A stretch of 56,595 nt of DNA from Pseudomonadota bacterium. GTDB taxonomy: Bacteria > Pseudomonadota > Gammaproteobacteria > Acidiferrobacterales > UBA6901. The notes below the pieces were generated by a model. The model did no database searches. It saw nothing but the letters and a program-made list of their open reading frames with translations, and had not been told where the DNA came from. The position numbers were made by a program, and so were the translations under genes. Location: contig JAJYEE010000017.1 in assembly GCA_021790335.1 (NCBI GenBank), forward strand, positions 1-56,595. Reading direction: 5' to 3'. Below, one piece after another: positions 4,887 through 26,004 of this stretch. Each line of letters opens with the position of its first letter. Position 1 is the first letter of the stretch.

Positions 4887-4900
4887 TTGATTTATGTCAA
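4887..4900 (+). promoter_or_regulatory. FNR/Dnr box upstream of nnrS
   Basis: TTGATTTATGTCAA matches TTGAT-N4-(A/G)TCAA with one deviation from symmetry. The hexamer GATAAG (4923-4928, four of six -10 matches) begins exactly 22 nt after the box. This places the predicted transcription start at about 4935, just upstream of the nnrS ATG at 4957. Confidence 0.8.
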
Positions 4901-4956
4901 GGACAGCAGCGCGGGCGATGAGGATAAGTGGATACCCGCATCAGGAACCGGAAACC

Positions 4957-6210
4957 ATGACCACGTCCCGCGAAAGTGCCGCCGCGGCGCGCCCCTCAGG
5001 TATCTGGCACGCGTTCAGTGCCGCTCCTCATCGCATGTTCTTTCTGGCGGGTGCCGTACAGATCGTCCTGATTATGGGCTGGTGGGCAGTCACGCTGTCG
5101 GGCCTCTATGGAATCCTTCCTGCCGCCGGGACACGCCTGAATCCGGTCTGGGCGCATGCGTTCCTCATGATTTACGGCCTGTTCCCGTTCTTCATCTTCG
5201 GCTTTCTTGCCACAGTCTACCCCCGCTGGATGAGTACTCCTGCGCTCTCACGCCGTACCTATGTCAGCGCATCCCTGCTCATGGCGGGCGGCGGGGCGCT
5301 GTTTTGCCTGGGACTGTATGCCGGAACCGGGATTGTTGCGCTTGCCACCACCGTATTCCTGTGCGGCTGGCTGACCATCCTCATCGCACTGCTGCGGGTC
5401 TACCACGCGGCGGGACAGCACGGTCCGCACGAACGCATACTCAATCTGGCGCTTGCCGCGGGGGCCGTGGGCATCGCATGCTTTACAGTTGCCGCGATCA
5501 GCGGGAACCCGACGTGGTTTGCCGCCGCGCGCGAGTTCGGACTGTGGATGTTTCTCGTTCCCGTGGTGTTCGGCGTCAGCCACCGTATGATCCCGTTTTT
5601 CGGCAACAGCGTGCTGGAAAACTACCGCATCGTGCGTCCCGCATGGAGCCTGCCACTGGTGCTGGTGTGCGCAACCGGTCACGCCGTGCTTGTGCTCTCG
5701 GGCGAGCGGCGCTGGCTTTTCGTGTGCGACCTGCCGCTGATGCTGACCGGCCTCTACCATTCGGTCGCCTGGGGATTTCGCCGCAGTTTCCACGATCGCC
5801 TGCTGGCCATGCTTCATATCGCGTTTTCCTGGTTCACGCTGGCGACGGCGCTGTATGGCCTTCAGAGCCTGGTCCTGCTCGGCAGCGGACGGTTGCTGTT
5901 CGGCCGCGCACCGCTGCACGCCCTGGGTATCGGCTTTGTGCTGGGCATGGTGGTGGCCATGGTCTCGCGAGTGAGCCTCGGGCACTCGGGCAGGGCGCTG
6001 GTCGCCGATCACCTCACGTGGATCACGTTACTCGGCATCAACGTAACTGCGCTGCTGCGCCTGGCTGCGGCGCTGACCGGGCCGTTTTTTGTCTACGCTT
6101 ATCTTTTCAATCTCGCCGCCGCCGGAGCGTGGCTTGTCTGTCTTACGCCCTGGGTCTGGCGCTATGCGCCGATGTATCTGCGGCCACGCATCGATGGTCG
6201 CGCCGGATGA
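4957..6210 (+). CDS. nnrS: NnrS family haem- and copper-binding membrane protein
   Basis: 417 residues and about twelve membrane segments. NnrS proteins are linked to nitric oxide tolerance and are regulated by NO-responsive FNR-family factors. The N-terminal half has the family pattern ending in YPRWMS, the middle has VSHRMIPFFG, and the C-terminal half has HALGIGFVLGMVVAMVSRV followed by SLGHSGR, which is diagnostic. An open frame begins 21 codons earlier, but the ATG at 4957 is preferred: the upstream codons lie on top of the promoter. The next gene, a hemerythrin, has its own Dnr box at 6227, so nnrS is likely transcribed alone or with readthrough. Confidence 0.9.
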   Translation: MTTSRESAAAARPSGIWHAFSAAPHRMFFLAGAVQIVLIMGWWAVTLSGLYGILPAAGTRLNPVWAHAFLMIYGLFPFFIFGFLATVYPRWMSTPALSRRTYVSASLLMAGGGALFCLGLYAGTGIVALATTVFLCGWLTILIALLRVYHAAGQHGPHERILNLALAAGAVGIACFTVAAISGNPTWFAAAREFGLWMFLVPVVFGVSHRMIPFFGNSVLENYRIVRPAWSLPLVLVCATGHAVLVLSGERRWLFVCDLPLMLTGLYHSVAWGFRRSFHDRLLAMLHIAFSWFTLATALYGLQSLVLLGSGRLLFGRAPLHALGIGFVLGMVVAMVSRVSLGHSGRALVADHLTWITLLGINVTALLRLAAALTGPFFVYAYLFNLAAAGAWLVCLTPWVWRYAPMYLRPRIDGRAG

Positions 6211-6755: not shown

Positions 6756-8117
6756 ATGGCCGGTCAGCAACAGAAGCCGCAGACCTCCGCCAGCGTGCCG
6801 GGCGCGGCCGTTCGCATGGGCACTGCGACGCTTTCTCTCGAGCAGGCACCTCCCATCTCGGTTCCCCTGCGTTTCTTTCTGACCGCGCCGATGTTCGCGA
6901 TCGCTGCGGCGCTGGCGCTCCTGTCGCTGGGACCTGCGGTCTGGGCATCTCGCTGGTCAGCCGGAGCGCTTGCGGTAACACACCTGATGACCCTCGGCTT
7001 TCTCGCCATGGTTATGATAGGCGCCCTGATGCAGATGCTTCCGGTCGTCGCCGGCGCACCCGTTGCGCAGGCACGCAGGGTAGGCAGCAGGGTGCATGTT
7101 CTGCTCAGTCTGGGGACGCTGGCGCTTGCCGGTGGCTTCCTCTTTGCTCGGGCGCCGCTGCTGGCGCTGGCACTGGCGCTGCTCGCGCTCGCCTTCGTCG
7201 CTTTCATCGGCGCGGCTGCGGGAAGCCTGGTGCGCGCCCGCGCAGCGGCCATCACCGTGCGCGGCATTCGGCTTTCCATCGGCGCGCTCGGGGTAACAGT
7301 ATGTGTCGGTCTGCTGCTCGGGGCCGGACGCACCTGGCATCAGCCGCTGGCTGTGTCCAGACTTGCGGCTTTGCACCTGGCCTGGGGCCTGCTCGGCTGG
7401 GTCGGATTGCTGGTGGTTGGCGTTGGCTTCCAGGTTGTCCCCATGCTCCAGACCACACCTCACTATCCGCGCATCCTGACTGGCCACCTTACGCGGGCGA
7501 TCTTTGTGACGCTGCTGCTCTGGTCGTCAGCCCAGTGGCTGTCCGGTCATCTGACGCTGGCGCGAGAATCCGCTCCGGCGCTTGCGTCCTTGCTGGGTCT
7601 GGGTTATGCCGTGTTCGCAGCCACAACACTTGTGCTGCAGCAGCGGCGGCGGCGCGAGATGCCCGATATCACGGTGCGCTTCTGGCGTATCGGCATGACG
7701 AGCCTGCTCGCCTGCGCAGTGCTCGGCTGGATGGGACTATGGGGGCCGCGGGGCGTCTCGACATCGATCGAGCTCACCTGGGGTATACTCGCGATTCTCG
7801 GCTTTGGCGTGTCGGTGATCAACGGCATGCTTTACAAGATCGTACCGTTTCTTGTCTGGCTACACCTTCAGGCCAGTCCGGCCGGACGTGGCAAACTGCC
7901 CAATATGAAGCAGATCATTCCGGAACGACGCGCCGGCATTCAGTTCTGGCTGCATCTTGCCGCGCTGCTGCTGCTGGCGGGTGCGGCATGGATGCCCCGC
8001 CTGCTGGCCTATCCGGCGGCGGCGGCGCTCGGATTCTCAAACCTGCTTTTATGGTTGAACCTGGTCAGCGCCTGGCGCCTGTACAAGAGGATTCTGGCTG
8101 AGGGATTTCCCGGATGA
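6756..8117 (+). CDS. Polytopic NnrS-like membrane protein
   Basis: 453 residues with about twelve membrane segments. Three copies of a histidine-containing helix pattern resemble NnrS and the neighbouring half-size proteins: THLMTLGFLAMVMIGALMQM followed by LP, LHLAWGLLGWVGLLVVGVGF followed by QVVP, and TWGILAILGFGVSVINGMLY followed by KIVP. The histidine and the G-x-x-P turn suggest haem or metal binding as in haem-copper oxidase subunit I relatives. I do not know a published function. It is coupled to the hemerythrin upstream and overlaps the SirB-like gene by 4 bp (ATGA), so it belongs to the Dnr-controlled operon. Confidence 0.75.
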   Translation: MAGQQQKPQTSASVPGAAVRMGTATLSLEQAPPISVPLRFFLTAPMFAIAAALALLSLGPAVWASRWSAGALAVTHLMTLGFLAMVMIGALMQMLPVVAGAPVAQARRVGSRVHVLLSLGTLALAGGFLFARAPLLALALALLALAFVAFIGAAAGSLVRARAAAITVRGIRLSIGALGVTVCVGLLLGAGRTWHQPLAVSRLAALHLAWGLLGWVGLLVVGVGFQVVPMLQTTPHYPRILTGHLTRAIFVTLLLWSSAQWLSGHLTLARESAPALASLLGLGYAVFAATTLVLQQRRRREMPDITVRFWRIGMTSLLACAVLGWMGLWGPRGVSTSIELTWGILAILGFGVSVINGMLYKIVPFLVWLHLQASPAGRGKLPNMKQIIPERRAGIQFWLHLAALLLLAGAAWMPRLLAYPAAAALGFSNLLLWLNLVSAWRLYKRILAEGFPG

Positions 8118-18484: not shown

Positions 18485-19195
18485 CTATCCTAAGAAGCGC
18501 AGCACACTGTCTTCCACCGGAGTCGAGCCGTTCACTTTCGGCCACAGCACCGGCCAGAGCCTCAGGCAGAACAGCAGCAGCGCAATCCAGGCGAGGCCAC
18601 CGCCGCTGAGCGCCAGCCAGCGCCAGCCGGAAACGAACCCCGTGACCAGCATCAACAATCCGGCGTGGGCGAGGCCGAGCTGCCACCACACGAGCGAGCC
18701 GCCACGAATGGGATTGCCGGTAAACCGCGGCAGCATGTGCTCGCCGAGCGCATACACCATGAACGTCATGAACCCGAGCGTGAACAGATGCAGGGGTGCA
18801 ACACGCGCGAAACCGGAAAGGAAAAACGAACCATTGACGGCAAGAAATCCCCCGGCAGCAAAAAGATAGGCCAGCGAGGAATGCACGGCAACGCGACCGC
18901 TGAACCCCATGCTGAGTCCGACATGGTGCGCCTGCGTGGCAGCCCTGGGCGGCGCGGCGCCGACGATGGCAAGTGCCTGCTGCCTGCTCTGCACGCCGAT
19001 CGCCACCAGCTTGCCGTCGACCACCAGCGCCGGGATGGTCTTCAGCCGCAACCGGCTGACCAGTTCCTTGCCCTCGGACTGGCCCATGTCCACGACGTCA
19101 AACTCGAACTCGCGCTCTTCCGACACTTCGCGCCAGACTTTTTCAGCCTGGTGGCAGGAGGCACACCAATCCGAAACCAGGAGCTGGACTTTCAT
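18485..19195 (-). CDS. Thioredoxin domain fused to NnrS-like membrane half
   Basis: 236 residues. Residues 1-80 form a cytoplasmic thioredoxin/glutaredoxin-like domain with the redox pair C11-A-S-C14 and a cis-proline at P55 (TIPAL). From about residue 104 four hydrophobic helices follow, with HLFTLGFMTFMVYALGEHML followed by PRFTGNP, including H136 and H153. The same pattern is found in the 19680 protein and, less clearly, in NnrS. CASCH reads like a c-type haem site, but there is no signal peptide, so a thioredoxin is preferred. GGAGAG precedes the ATG. A membrane-tethered redox protein near NO-response genes; the substrate is unknown. Confidence 0.8.
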   Translation of the reverse strand: MKVQLLVSDWCASCHQAEKVWREVSEEREFEFDVVDMGQSEGKELVSRLRLKTIPALVVDGKLVAIGVQSRQQALAIVGAAPPRAATQAHHVGLSMGFSGRVAVHSSLAYLFAAGGFLAVNGSFFLSGFARVAPLHLFTLGFMTFMVYALGEHMLPRFTGNPIRGGSLVWWQLGLAHAGLLMLVTGFVSGWRWLALSGGGLAWIALLLFCLRLWPVLWPKVNGSTPVEDSVLRFLG

Positions 19196-19229: not shown

Positions 19230-19676
19230 CTAATCCTGGCAGCGCATGCACTGGACGTCGTACCGGTCTATCCATTTATGCAACGCCGCGATCGCTGTCG
19301 CTCCCGTGTGCAGGCGCGCCATTGCCTTTGCCGGGTCATCCGGGCGCATGACCACGAGCCAGGCGTCACCATAGGGAGAGACATTGACCAGCCCGGGCTT
19401 GGCCGCAACCTGATCGTTGATGCGCAGGATCTCGCCGTCAAAGGGGGCCGGTATGCCTCCGGCCCACTTGCCGGATTCGAGCCGCGCCACTGGCTTGCCG
19501 CTGGCCCGATGCGCTCCCGGTTTCTTGAAAAATATGTACTGCACGCGACCGGCCATGGTCTGGGCTGCATCCGTGATGCCGAGCGTGTAGGTGCCGTCGG
19601 CTTCCGGACGAACCCACACGTAATCGAGGTCATAGTACAGGTCTTCCGGCAATTCGCAGCCTCGGTATTCAGACAT
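19230..19676 (-). CDS. GcvH-like lipoyl carrier protein with CxxC tail
   Basis: 148 residues. The core aligns with glycine cleavage H proteins: LESGKWAGGIPAPFDGEI places the lipoyl-lysine at K70 (as in ESVKA of true GcvH), followed by LVNVSPYGDAWLVV. There are no gcvT or gcvP genes here, and the end carries an extra CMRC pair (C143, C146), so this is not the ordinary glycine cleavage carrier. It begins 3 nt after the stop of the mini NnrS-like gene, and the thioredoxin fusion follows 34 nt later. A lipoyl dithiol that the thioredoxin could reduce is the obvious inference; lipoate-binding proteins of sulfur oxidation (LbpA) are an alternative comparison. Confidence 0.8.
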   Translation of the reverse strand: MSEYRGCELPEDLYYDLDYVWVRPEADGTYTLGITDAAQTMAGRVQYIFFKKPGAHRASGKPVARLESGKWAGGIPAPFDGEILRINDQVAAKPGLVNVSPYGDAWLVVMRPDDPAKAMARLHTGATAIAALHKWIDRYDVQCMRCQD

Positions 19677-19679
19677 GGT

Positions 19680-20075
19680 TCAACCCGCAGGTCCGTGCAC
19701 TTTGACGGTAAGCATGATGTTGAGCGCAAACATCCCGATGCCGATCCAGCTGACCATGCCGCCGATCAGCACCAGAAGGTTGAACGTCCCGAGCCATCCC
19801 GCCGACATCAACCACAATCCGCCATTGGACACGTACAGCTGCCAGTTCGCCAGGCGTTCCGAAAACAACGGGTTGCCGGAGAACCGTGGCAGGACATGCA
19901 GGCCAATGCCGTAGATCATCATGGCGATAAAGCCCAGGAGCATGATATGTCCGTGCAGGCGCGCAACATCGCCCGGTATCAGCCCCGGATCGGACAACCA
20001 TGTGATGCCTATCAATCCACCGAGCAGCGCGTAGGCGAGACTCAGGGTAACGAAAAGACGGTTTCGTCTATGCAT
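19680..20075 (-). CDS. Small NnrS-like four-helix membrane protein
   Basis: 131 residues and four predicted membrane helices. ARLHGHIMLLGFIAMMIYGI followed by GLHVLPRFSGNP matches the helix of the thioredoxin fusion at 18485 nearly motif for motif (H-x-x-x-LGF...G-x-H-x-LPRF-x-GNP). Histidines 41, 43 and 60 could bind haem or copper as in haem-copper oxidase subunit I relatives. It is the first gene of the operon. Its promoter has the Dnr box at 20126-20139 centred 41.5 nt upstream of a predicted start. A membrane partner of the lipoyl protein is likely, but the function is not known. Confidence 0.75.
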   Translation of the reverse strand: MHRRNRLFVTLSLAYALLGGLIGITWLSDPGLIPGDVARLHGHIMLLGFIAMMIYGIGLHVLPRFSGNPLFSERLANWQLYVSNGGLWLMSAGWLGTFNLLVLIGGMVSWIGIGMFALNIMLTVKVHGPAG

Positions 20076-20125
20076 GCCGAAACCTCGCTTTTTGCTTAGA
20101 ATACGACCAAGCGGGAAATTTCCCT

Positions 20126-20139
20126 TTGACTTCGGTCAA
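20126..20139 (-). promoter_or_regulatory. FNR/Dnr box between dnr and the NnrS-like operon
   Basis: TTGACTTCGGTCAA. On the minus strand TATTCT (20103 to 20098, four of six matches) begins exactly 22 nt after the box, so transcription of the 20075 gene would start at about 20091, 16 nt before its ATG. On the plus strand the same box lies 31 nt from the dnr ATG, too close for class II activation, and could repress or autoregulate dnr. Confidence 0.75.
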
Positions 20140-20169
20140 GCCGGGTCCGCTGCGGACTATGATAACTTA

Positions 20170-20883
20170 ATGAAAGACATGGTTAAACAATTCGACGAAC
20201 TGCGCCGTGCGCATCTGTTTGCCCAGGCTGACGACGCGCAGCTTGCGACGCTCGCACGCGTCATGCAGGAGGTCGAACTTGCGCCCGGGGATACGCTGTT
20301 TACCCACGGCCAGGCGGCCGAGCGCTTTTTCTTCGTGCGCTCGGGACGGGTCAAATTGTTCCGAATATCACCCGAAGGACAGGAGAAGATCATCGAAGTC
20401 GTCGAACCCGGACAGACCTTCGCGGAGGCGGTAATGTTCATGGGCAGCCAGGGACACTATCCGGTGAACGCCCAGGCAATGACCGACAGCCGGCTGTACG
20501 CGTTTGACCAGAAGCAGTTTCTCAAGGTCCTATCCGAGTCCTCGGAGATCTGCCTCGGCATGCTGTCAGCAATGAGCCGCCGGCTGCACATGCTCATCAA
20601 CCAGATCGACGGGCTGACTCTGCAGAATGCGACTTACCGCCTGGTGATGTATCTGCTCGAGCATGCGCCCCAGGGTCTGGCCGAAACCACGGAAATCGAG
20701 CTCACGACCCCCAAAGGGGTGATCGCCTCGCAACTGGCTATCCAGCCGGAGACTTTTTCGCGCATCCTTGCCAAACTGAAGCGGCTCGGCCTCATAGAGG
20801 TGAACGGAAACCACATTACGCTGCGCAACCTGCGCGGGTTGCGCAGCTTGGCCTATGTGCCGGTTCCCGACGATACTGCATGA
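20170..20883 (+). CDS. dnr: Dnr-type Crp/Fnr family transcription regulator
   Basis: 237 residues: cyclic-nucleotide-like beta-roll, long dimer helix, C-terminal winged helix. There is no N-terminal cysteine cluster (one cysteine in all), unlike FNR/Anr, so it probably senses nitric oxide through haem as Dnr does. The recognition helix QPETFSRILAKLK has the E-x-x-S-R pattern that reads TTGAT half-sites, which fits the five boxes in this window. The ATG at 20170 is chosen; ATG at 20179 is possible, since neither has a clear ribosome site. It heads an operon with moaB and moaC and is divergent from the NnrS-like operon. Confidence 0.88.
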   Translation: MKDMVKQFDELRRAHLFAQADDAQLATLARVMQEVELAPGDTLFTHGQAAERFFFVRSGRVKLFRISPEGQEKIIEVVEPGQTFAEAVMFMGSQGHYPVNAQAMTDSRLYAFDQKQFLKVLSESSEICLGMLSAMSRRLHMLINQIDGLTLQNATYRLVMYLLEHAPQGLAETTEIELTTPKGVIASQLAIQPETFSRILAKLKRLGLIEVNGNHITLRNLRGLRSLAYVPVPDDTA

Positions 20884-22464: not shown

Positions 22465-25400
22465 ATGACCAGCAACAACAGCGTGAGCGATTTCAGACCA
22501 GGCCTGCCGGGCCTCACGTACGATGATCTGTTTCAACAGGAAGGCCTGGAGAAGCTCGACCGCGAGTTTCTGGAGCGTCTCGCGCAGTGCGATGCGGCGC
22601 GTCACAGCCAACTGCTCGCCTATCGGGCTGGCGGGGAGTTCAGCGCACTGCAGGTGAGCGAACTGCTTCTGGCCACCGGGCCGGTGCTCGAAGAATTCCT
22701 GTCCGAACTGTTTGGCATCCAGGACGCCCTTGAGCGCTCGCGCCTGCACACTCTTGCGCATGATCCGGTGTTTGCTTTCAAAAAACTCTTCGTTCAGCGC
22801 CGTGCCCGCCGCCGCCTGCTCGCCAAGGAGGAGATCGAGCCGTTCGTCGAGCTCGACGCCGCGCTGGACCGTGCGCTGCGGCCGGCGGGACAGAACGACT
22901 CCGATCGCGAGCTCGCAATCGCAAAGTGGGGACAGCAATTACTCGCGGACCAGCAGTCAAACCAGGATGCGATTGAAATGCTCACGCGCTGGTGCATTCA
23001 GGCGATCAAGACCGCCGAAGGCCAGGCCTGCGTTCATGGCTGGGCGAGCTTCCGGCTGCCTCAAGGGATCGACCACGGCCGTCTCGTACCGGTTGTCCCG
23101 GTGGCCGCAGATCCTATGGGTCGCGTCGAAGGTCCGCAGAGCGACCGTCGCCGGCGTGACGGTTTCAGACTGACCGATCTGCGCATGCAGCCCCGCCAGA
23201 TCCAGAACGAGATTCATTATTGCATCTACTGCCACGATCATGATGGCGACTTCTGCTCCAAGGGGTTTCCGGAAAAAAAGGGCGAGCCGGAAAAGGGTCT
23301 CAAGGTCAATCCTCTGGGCGTGACGCTTACGGGCTGCCCGCTCGACCAAAAGATCTCTGAGATGCACGTAATGAAAAGGGATGGCCGCACGATCGCCGCC
23401 CTTGCCATGATCACCGTGGACAACCCCATGTGCGCCGCCACGGGCCACCGCATCTGCAACGATTGCATGAAGGCCTGCATTTACCAAAAGCAGGATCCGG
23501 TTAACATTCCGCAGGCAGAGACCGGCATTCTTACCGATGTTCTAAACCTTCCCTGGGGCGTTGAGATTTACGATCTGCTCATACGCTGGAACCCGCTGCG
23601 GCGGCGCCAGTGGCTGCCCAGGCCCTATAACGGACTGAAGGTGTTGATCGCAGGCATGGGGCCAGCAGGTTTCACCCTGGCCCACCACATGCTCATGGAA
23701 GGGTTTGCCGTCGTGGGCATCGAGGGTCTCAAGATCGAACCTTTGCCTGAGGAACTTCTGCGGCACCCCATCCGCGATTACTCCTCCCTCGAGGAACCGC
23801 TCGACACGCGGGTGATGGCAGGCTTCGGCGGTGTGGCGGAATACGGCATCACGAACCGCTGGGACAAGAATTTTCTAAGGCTTATTTATTTAAGCCTGGC
23901 GCGTCGACCGCGGTTCCAAGTCTTCGGAGGCGTGCGCTTCGGCGGGACCCTCACGGTCGAGGACGCATGGCATCTGGGATTCGACCACGTCGCCATCGCT
24001 ATCGGTGCGGGCCTGCCGCAGGCGCTGCCGGTACCCGGGAGCCTCGCGCCCGGCATGCGTCAGGCCAATGATTTTCTCATGGCGCTGCAGCTGACCGGCG
24101 CAGCCAAGGCCGCCAGCCTCGCCAATCTGCAGGTGCGCCTGCCAGCCGTCATCGTCGGCGGCGGCCTCACCGGCATAGATACGGCGACTGAGGTCGGTGC
24201 TTACTACATAGCTCAGACGGAGAAGACGCTCGAGCGCTACGAACTGCTATGCGACAGTCTCGGGGAGGAGGGGGTGCGTAGCGGGCTGGATGAAGGTGGC
24301 CGCATTATCCTTGACGAGTTGGTCGCCCACGGTCGGCTGGTGCGCGCAGAACGGGTACGGGCCGCAGCCACGGAAACGCAGCCGAATTTCGAGAAACTGC
24401 TGCGTGCCTGGGGCGGGGTGACTGTCGCGTACCGGCGCGGAATGAACGAGTCTCCGGCATACACGCGCAACCACGAAGAGATCATCAAGGCCCTGGAAGA
24501 AGGAATTTATTACGCCGAAGGGCTGGATCCGAAGGAGGCACTGACCGACCGTTATGGCCAGGTCGAGGCGCTGCGGTGCCGGCAACTCAGGCGCAACGCG
24601 GACGGAAGCTGGGAGGACACCGGCGAGGAAATCTCGGTACCCGCGCGATCTATACTCGTGGCGACCGGGGCGCGACCGAATGTCGCGTATGAATTCGAGC
24701 ATCGCGGGCATTTTGACAAGGAGCGCGGCCATTATCAGACCTTCCACGACGCCGGTGGCCGCTTGATTGCTGTGCCGGTCGCGGCGCACTGCAAGATCGA
24801 CGATTTCGGACCGTTTACCTCCTACGGCGTGGACGGCCGGCGCGTAAGCTTTCTTGGAGATACGCATCCGGTGTTTCACGGCAGCGTCGTGAAGGCAGTG
24901 GCCTCCGGGAAACGCACTTATTCGAAAATACTCACGGCTCTGGGTGAACGCGCAGGCCAACGCGGCGATGCACAGGAGTACGGGCGCTTCCGTGGGAAGC
25001 TCGATGAGCTACTGACCGCGAGGGTAGAGAGGGTTGAACGTCTTGCCAGGACGGTGGTAGAGCTAACCGTACGCGCGCCGATGGCGGCGCGACGATTCCG
25101 TCCTGGCCAGTTTTTCCGTCTGCAGAACTTCGAGACGCGCGCGCCATTCGTGGACGGAACCCGGCTGCAGTCCGAGGCGCTTGCCCTGTACGGCGCAAAG
25201 GTCGACAAGGACCGCGGACTGGTGTCTGTCGTCGTCATCGAACAGGGAGCCAGCTCACACCTCGTTGCAACACTGAAGCCCGGAGACCCGGTGACACTGA
25301 TGGGTCCGACCGGTGTGCGTGCAACAATTCCCGATGGCAACGAAACGGTCATGATCGTAGGCGGCGTGCTCGGTACCGCGTATCTGCGATCGGTGGGCAC

Positions 25401-26004
25401 AGCGCTGCGCAGCGCCGGCAACCGCGTGCTCTATGTTGCCGTCTTTCCCTCCGCGGATGCCATTATCTGCCGTGACGAAGTGGAGGATGCGGCAGATTGC
25501 ATCCTGTGGATCGCCGAACGAGGCGATCCGCCCGCCACGCGCCGCCCGCAGGATCTGGCGGCAAGCGGCGACCTGGTAGAGGTCTTGGTTCGCTACGCAA
25601 CGGGCGCGCTCGGGGCTGCGGGTGATGCGCCGCCCGTGCGGCTGGAGGATATCGACAGGCTCTTGATCATCGGATCAAGCTGCCTGGTGCGGCGCCTGCG
25701 CGATGCACGCGGCCATGAACTCAAAGGTTTTCTGGTCAAGAATCCCGAGACCACCGCCTCCATCGGCACACCGATGCAGTGCATGCTTAAGGGGGTCTGC
25801 TCCCAATGCCTTCAGTGGCAGATCGACCCGCATACCGGACGGCGCACCAAGGCGGTGTTTGCCTGTTCATGGCAGGACCAACCCGCGGACATCGTCGATC
25901 TCGACAATCTGGACGAGCGCCTGTCACAGAACCGGGTACAGGAATATCTGACCGGTTTGTGGCTAAATCATCTGCTCGCCAAGCACAAGCTGCAGCGTGT
26001 GTGA
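22465..26004 (+). CDS. Single-chain iron-sulfur flavoprotein (NfnAB/GltD-PyrK-like fusion)
   Basis: 1179 residues. The first 390 residues are helical and carry cysteines C253, C256, C264, C291, C323, C331, C334 and C338, candidate iron-sulfur ligands. A GltD/NfnB-like pyridine nucleotide-disulfide module follows: FAD site LIAGMGPAGFTLAHH (G397-x-G399-x2-G402) and a second nucleotide site VIVGGGLTGIDTATE. The last 300 residues resemble the PyrK/NfnA ferredoxin-NADP reductase type (RFRPGQFFRLQ, GPTGVRATIP) and end with C1106-x5-C1112-x2-C1115-x18-C1134. This is the layout of NADH/NADPH:ferredoxin transhydrogenases in one chain. Electron partner unknown. It follows the moa genes and DUF2892 but has its own start 200 bp away. 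Confidence 0.75.
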   Translation: MTSNNSVSDFRPGLPGLTYDDLFQQEGLEKLDREFLERLAQCDAARHSQLLAYRAGGEFSALQVSELLLATGPVLEEFLSELFGIQDALERSRLHTLAHDPVFAFKKLFVQRRARRRLLAKEEIEPFVELDAALDRALRPAGQNDSDRELAIAKWGQQLLADQQSNQDAIEMLTRWCIQAIKTAEGQACVHGWASFRLPQGIDHGRLVPVVPVAADPMGRVEGPQSDRRRRDGFRLTDLRMQPRQIQNEIHYCIYCHDHDGDFCSKGFPEKKGEPEKGLKVNPLGVTLTGCPLDQKISEMHVMKRDGRTIAALAMITVDNPMCAATGHRICNDCMKACIYQKQDPVNIPQAETGILTDVLNLPWGVEIYDLLIRWNPLRRRQWLPRPYNGLKVLIAGMGPAGFTLAHHMLMEGFAVVGIEGLKIEPLPEELLRHPIRDYSSLEEPLDTRVMAGFGGVAEYGITNRWDKNFLRLIYLSLARRPRFQVFGGVRFGGTLTVEDAWHLGFDHVAIAIGAGLPQALPVPGSLAPGMRQANDFLMALQLTGAAKAASLANLQVRLPAVIVGGGLTGIDTATEVGAYYIAQTEKTLERYELLCDSLGEEGVRSGLDEGGRIILDELVAHGRLVRAERVRAAATETQPNFEKLLRAWGGVTVAYRRGMNESPAYTRNHEEIIKALEEGIYYAEGLDPKEALTDRYGQVEALRCRQLRRNADGSWEDTGEEISVPARSILVATGARPNVAYEFEHRGHFDKERGHYQTFHDAGGRLIAVPVAAHCKIDDFGPFTSYGVDGRRVSFLGDTHPVFHGSVVKAVASGKRTYSKILTALGERAGQRGDAQEYGRFRGKLDELLTARVERVERLARTVVELTVRAPMAARRFRPGQFFRLQNFETRAPFVDGTRLQSEALALYGAKVDKDRGLVSVVVIEQGASSHLVATLKPGDPVTLMGPTGVRATIPDGNETVMIVGGVLGTAYLRSVGTALRSAGNRVLYVAVFPSADAIICRDEVEDAADCILWIAERGDPPATRRPQDLAASGDLVEVLVRYATGALGAAGDAPPVRLEDIDRLLIIGSSCLVRRLRDARGHELKGFLVKNPETTASIGTPMQCMLKGVCSQCLQWQIDPHTGRRTKAVFACSWQDQPADIVDLDNLDERLSQNRVQEYLTGLWLNHLLAKHKLQRV

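Follow-up and report, generated by a model that had tools for sequence, protein, structure and literature searches.

A thioredoxin fused to a putative single four-helix repeat of the heme-copper oxidase/NnrS fold, encoded with a lipoyl carrier beside a DNR-type regulator

Genes and Features of the Locus

The window, by which is meant the whole stretch of 56,595 nucleotides that was analysed, carries a cassette of three genes, for a four-helix membrane protein (cox4TM), a lipoyl carrier (LbpA3) and a thioredoxin (Trx) fused to a second four-helix membrane part (Trx-4TM), as well as a divergent regulator gene and a full-length nnrS gene (Table 1). Judged from the arrangement of its genes, the cassette is a conserved operon: the order cox4TM-LbpA3-Trx4TM and the strand are kept in 17 of 17 distinct loci, with gaps mostly below 40 bp. 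It is apparently a new combination of known folds that is undescribed in the literature searched, where no paper was found on the cassette, on a third LbpA or on a thioredoxin with an NnrS-like part, a negative result that is weak because only open-access papers were covered.

Table 1. Features of the cassette and of related genes in the window (positions of the forward strand)
Feature	Position	Strand	Basis and remarks
Trx-4TM fusion gene	18485..19195	-	236 aa, ATG start
Trx domain of the fusion, about residues 1-79	18959..19195	-	PF13192; Trx structures Z 10-11.5, 1.6-2.1 Å
Membrane part of the fusion, about residues 97-236	18485..18907	-	AlphaFold model versus COX1 helices IX-XII, 2.0-2.6 Å over 120-123 residues
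LbpA-type lipoyl carrier (LbpA3), 148 aa, E67-S-G-K70-W	19230..19676	-	PF01597, E 4e-32
cox4TM, 131 aa, 4TM, H41-x-H43 and H60	19680..20075	-	PF00115, E 3e-6, sub-threshold
FNR/DNR-type palindrome TTGACTTCGGTCAA	20126..20139		-64 of the cassette, divergent promoter region
DNR-type Crp/Fnr regulator, divergent	20074..20883	+	phmmer: 3dkw, E 4e-45 over 43-252; HTH QPETFSR
Full-length NnrS	4894..6210	+	PF05940, E 3e-67; box at 4887-4900

The fusion was found in 11 of 369 gammaproteobacterial genomes, which belong to eight families, and also in named MAG contigs, and because of this recurrence it is neither a chance product nor an assembly artefact. A sample of 398 genomes from across the phylum gave none outside the Gammaproteobacteria, and a plasmid search with the fusion gave a match to the Trx part only, in plasmids of Acidithiobacillus ferrooxidans. 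As to whether the fusion arose once, its label changes four times on the best tree of the Trx domains, only one of these changes being forced by the starred branches.

In related genomes the thioredoxin has a gene of its own, close to that of the same lipoyl protein. Such unfused relatives occur in two settings, either with an LbpA3 gene in sHdr genomes or without LbpA3 in genomes with NirS, mostly beside DNR-like genes. NirS is present in all 10 genomes with the stand-alone Trx but no LbpA3 (G147 included) as compared with 4 of 45 controls. In two genomes (G082 and G311; loci L053 and L056) the interval between the regulator and moeA contains only an unfused Trx of 85-87 amino acids, the 4TM and lipoyl genes being absent, and at four further loci (L029, L030, L031 and L032) small Trx-like proteins in which one cysteine of the active site or both are missing are encoded beside a DNR-like regulator.

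Several other genes of the neighbourhood should be mentioned. Hemerythrin or DUF2249-hemerythrin genes adjoin the cassette elsewhere, and at one locus (L042 of G156) the cassette is flanked by nnrS, a 12TM paralogue and a hemerythrin. The 12TM protein is encoded in the window at 6756-8117 (+); it is NnrS/HCO-like, has no clear Pfam family, has repeat motifs spaced by about 135 residues, lies between hemerythrins on both sides, and is conserved in L042. At 22465-26004 (+) there is a gene for a PRK06567-like flavoprotein of 1179 amino acids with a glutamate synthase beta-like and a ferredoxin-reductase-like part; it adjoins a YgaP-like TM protein and moaB/moaC, and its synteny is found again in relatives (L053, L056). 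With respect to NnrS the association is only modest (8 of 11 versus 16 of 45, p 0.04). A denitrification operon was considered and rejected for the genome from which the window comes, in which a search for NirS and NorB found no NirS, and no NorB among the three full heme-copper oxidases (HCOs).

The Thioredoxin Domain

The sequence-only reading had placed a CASC thioredoxin at the N-terminus of the fusion, and this is borne out. Thioredoxin_3 (PF13192) matches residues 1-78 above the cut-off (E 2.1e-10), the AlphaFold2 model (mean pLDDT 81) has a Trx fold in the same residues, and the W10-C11-A-S-C14 motif is accompanied by cis-P55, with which the domain is to be counted among the thioredoxins. 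In the alignment of 17 fusion proteins, the other members of which are 39-95% identical to that of the window, W10, C11, C14, P55, H136, H153, H177 and R212 are invariant (17/17), as are P156 and R157. The four helices predicted for the membrane part (98-121, 128-159, 167-189 and 192-217) had likewise been read correctly, and so had the contexts of the two histidines: H136 in H136-LFT-LGF and H153 exactly in G151-E-H153-M-LPRF-T-GNP.

Single Four-Helix Repeats in the Membrane

The membrane part had been taken for an NnrS-like half. The relation to the NnrS/HCO superfamily stands, but not the half. PF05940 (NnrS) scores 23.7 bits with the fusion, which is below the curated cut-off of 28, and only positions 254-368 of the 371 in the profile, thus its last third, are covered; since there are also four rather than about 12 TM helices, membership in the NnrS family was rejected. 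An HCO consists of three four-helix repeats that resemble one another. The comparison of predicted structures that had been proposed as a check turned out well for the HCO repeat: bovine COX1 (1occ_A, residues 333-479, helices IX-XII) fits the fusion model with Z 11.5 and 2.4 Å over 123 residues, COX1 of Tetrahymena with Z 14.2 and 2.6 Å over 122 and cbb3 with 2.1 Å over 127, Z values that are to be read against a caution level of VIA-align of about 13 for helical bundles. All structural matches that do not run via the Trx domain are HCOs (2.0-3.4 Å over 120-132 residues, Z up to 14.2). The claim is based on VIA-align together with the sequence profile; Foldseek alone gave no match under E 0.001 with either model, that of the fusion or that of the 4TM paralogue. 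Because the best structural fit is to helices IX-XII of COX1, the membrane part of the fusion, as modelled, is one four-helix repeat of the HCO/NnrS fold and not one half of a 12-helix protein. This does not make it an HCO subunit I: the four-helix repeat of that fold is found, but in place of 12 helices with the complete set of His ligands for heme a, heme a3 and CuB there are only four helices, with one histidine at a ligand position in the fusion and two in cox4TM.

The stand-alone paralogue cox4TM (model pLDDT 90) is 35-39% identical to the membrane part of the fusion, and in the tree the two types lie each on one side of a branch with 100/100 support. Its H41-x-H43 and H60 are invariant (18/18). 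Against the PDB the cox4TM profile finds CcoN (E 2.6e-4) with a match on each of the three repeats, the single matches being weak; on a full-length cbb3-like protein from another proteobacterium it matches three times, again with the repeats in register (conditional E 1e-8, 2e-6 and 2e-5), and within the window three on NnrS and two clear ones on the 12TM paralogue. Columns 41 and 43 align to histidines of HCO helices II, VI and X, which in HCOs are metal ligands. From the matches to three repeats and the register of the ligand columns it follows that cox4TM and the membrane part of the fusion are both single repeats of the HCO/NnrS fold. The structural neighbours of the cox4TM model are HCOs, the styrene oxide isomerase trimer (8pnu, Z 10.1, 3.0 Å over 122 residues) and MAPEG trimers (Z 9.8, 3.4 Å over 121), with Z 9-11 overall and thus below the caution level.

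Single-repeat 4TM proteins with H-x-H and LLGF/LLGW are also found elsewhere in the phylum (L099-L102 and L092-L098). Many of them belong to one family (f208), different ones match different thirds of the COX1 model, and some show a weak match to DUF2871. In G147 there is a single chimeric 4TM gene (L016:1510-1902), the N-terminal part of which is 61% identical to cox4TM and the C-terminal part 52% identical to the membrane part of the fusion; a recombination of the two paralogues with loss of the lipoyl and Trx genes that lie between them would give such a gene.

The Lipoyl Carrier

K70 of the cassette carrier is invariant and aligns to the lipoyl lysine of GcvH of known structure, and the protein has, by its sequence, a GcvH-type fold with this predicted lipoyl lysine. 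C7, C143 and C146 (C143-M-R-C146) are invariant as well. In the tree the carrier groups with the LbpAs of the sHdr pathway apart from GcvH (38 rows versus 7 GcvH, 100/100) and forms its own clade (85/85) next to one LbpA type (the two clades together have 99/96), both placements being subject to a long-branch warning; phylogenetically it thus adds a third clade to the two LbpAs of the sHdr pathway. That it is the H protein of the glycine cleavage system was rejected, given this placement and a separate canonical GcvH on another contig (C64).

Regulation

The regulator belongs to the DNR type, its closest relative of solved structure being DNR (3dkw) and its box being of the FNR type. The first ATG of its open reading frame (20074) overlaps the start of the cassette, and translation more likely starts at a Met that lies about 32 codons further downstream. 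Among 17 upstream regions (16 of cassettes and one of the chimera) 12 contain TTGA-N6-TCAA at -64 to -74, for which the chance is about 0.001 per 200 bp; the exact box is absent in the other five, and the boxes of the cassettes are not phylogenetically independent. The window has five such boxes (2061, 4887, 6227, 12034 and 20126), as compared with a mean of 0.63 in 100 shuffles of the window, in none of which five were reached. In the genome as a whole there are 39 sites of a stricter form versus 2 for the reversed control pattern, and these would make up a sizeable DNR/FNR regulon.

DNR regulons and their boxes have been described, with nnrS and COG4309-norB as members of the NO regulon (PMC1274295). 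The DNR-type regulator, the TTGA-N6-TCAA box and the nearby nnrS and hemerythrin genes tie the cassette to the NO regulon. As far as can be judged from these sequences, the nnrS of the window is probably in the same regulon as the cassette, for which nitric oxide appears to be the inducing signal.

Proposed Function and Alternatives

The positive-inside pattern places the N-terminus, the loop between helices 2 and 3 and the C-terminus in the cytosol. The thioredoxin is therefore probably cytosolic, and the H-x-H would lie near the periplasmic side, like the corresponding helix of COX1. Styrene oxide isomerase forms trimers in which H58 holds heme b at the interfaces between the subunits (PMC11374702), and thioredoxin and dihydrolipoate are reported to be dithiols that remove the nitroso group from S-nitrosothiols (Stoyanovsky 2005, cited in PMC9598160). 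Because of the probably cytosolic thioredoxin, the precedent of a heme b trimer and the denitrosating dithiols we favour, with a probability of about 40%, an NO-inducible, membrane-anchored dithiol redox module that relays electrons on to a membrane heme and of which the fusion is one subunit. The structural and regulatory part of this reading is very probably correct; a specific function in the reduction of NO or nitrosothiols is tentative and rather to be doubted. That the fusion puts both modules into one electron path, as had been proposed from the sequence, is plausible.

In such a module NO would act on DNR and the operon would be induced. The two 4TM subunits would lie next to each other in one assembly. 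Its simplest form would be a trimer of repeats, by analogy with MAPEG enzymes, with styrene oxide isomerase and with the way in which three repeats are combined within COX1, and heme b would be bound by the helix-2 histidines of this assembly near the periplasmic side. Since the first His of H-x-H is missing from the fusion, the fusion itself may be unable to bind heme. On the cytosolic face dihydrolipoyl-LbpA3 and Trx would exchange electrons (LbpA3 to Trx), which would then be passed on to the membrane heme or be used directly. The result would be a reductive removal of NO or S-nitrosothiols, by which the lipoate/persulfide chemistry of sHdr sulfur oxidation would be shielded.

It should be noted, however, that the sHdr LbpA type is present in 16 of 18 genomes with LbpA3 versus 6 of 55 others (Fisher p 2e-9, a value that is optimistic because the genomes are related), a tie that is as good an argument for sulfur chemistry as for NO, or a better one. 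It speaks for the reading that we rank second and consider unlikely, namely an electron outlet of sulfur oxidation, in which LbpA3 takes thiol or sulfane electrons (or sulfur) from the cytosolic sHdr system to Trx, from where they would reach the quinone pool through the heme subunits of the 4TM type, while DNR would provide no more than a link to low-oxygen conditions. LbpA is essential to sHdr sulfur oxidation (PMC6067878), the LbpA3 clade is sister to one sHdr LbpA type, with ESGKW common to both, and in the genome of the window an shdr cluster that includes two LbpAs lies on contig C103. The cassette, however, is located on C100 and thus outside this cluster, as it is in G127, the other of the two genomes that were compared directly, and the DNR/FNR-type regulator with its box and the nnrS and hemerythrin neighbours likewise speak against this reading.

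The remaining readings are less probable. That cox4TM and the fusion form a (hetero)trimer of single repeats which rebuilds an HCO-like heme site and works as a lipoyl/Trx-driven NO reductase appears quite improbable; if true, organisms of today would possess a one-repeat equivalent of the pseudo-threefold fold of COX1 and NnrS. A role in maturation, in which the single-repeat proteins would supply NnrS or an HCO with heme or metal as chaperones while the Trx would keep a cytosolic thiol reduced, would agree with their small size, with an HCO-like helix that has metal-ligand positions and with the presence of nnrS and COX15 (CtaA) in the same window; yet three genomes (G241, G191 and G223) have the cassette with NnrS undetected, and the invariable partner of these proteins, a lipoyl carrier, is not a known assembly factor; we regard this role as very unlikely. 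H136, H153, H177, R157 and P156 are conserved beyond what an anchor needs, which argues against the least probable reading of all, a 4TM part without cofactor that only tethers the thioredoxin near a membrane target, even though an unfused Trx also exists and the fused membrane part is without one His of H-x-H.

The sequence-only reading had overlooked cox4TM, the LbpA-type carrier and the DNR-type regulator, all of which alter the interpretation. The reading as an NnrS half thus needs to be widened to that of one HCO repeat within a three-gene, DNR-controlled lipoyl/Trx module. Single-repeat relatives of HCOs in which the metal-ligand positions are kept make the origin of the HCO fold testable, and the third LbpA type indicates a possible role of lipoate outside the sHdr complex. 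Under the favoured NO-induced dithiol relay the cassette would connect the NO response with lipoate-based sulfur oxidation via a fused thioredoxin.

Comparison with Known Systems

With subunit I of HCOs (COX1, CcoN and NorB; PF00115) the repeat of the fusion shares the predicted fold of helices IX-XII, whereas the 4TM proteins have one repeat instead of three, lack the CuB ligands of helix VII and do not score above the Pfam cut-off. In the case of NnrS (PF05940), the LH-x4-GF helix of the fusion aligns to the last third with the single His kept, and there are DNR-type boxes at both the cassette and the nnrS of the window; the fusion differs in having four instead of 12 helices, a sub-threshold score, no HTGR-type motif and a fused Trx. 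Styrene oxide isomerase and the MAPEG enzymes may share the 4TM fold with the cox4TM model, the Z values (9.8-10.1) being suggestive only, but the reactions differ and no sequence relation to the 4TM proteins was detected. The cassette carrier has in common with LbpA1 and LbpA2 of the sHdr pathway the GcvH fold, ESGKW, a position outside the GcvH clade and the occurrence in the same genomes, and is distinguished from them by its own clade, the C-terminal CMRC and a locus that is away from shdr and adjoins DNR. The regulator, finally, matches Pseudomonas DNR (3dkw) over nearly its full length, and the DNA box matches as well.
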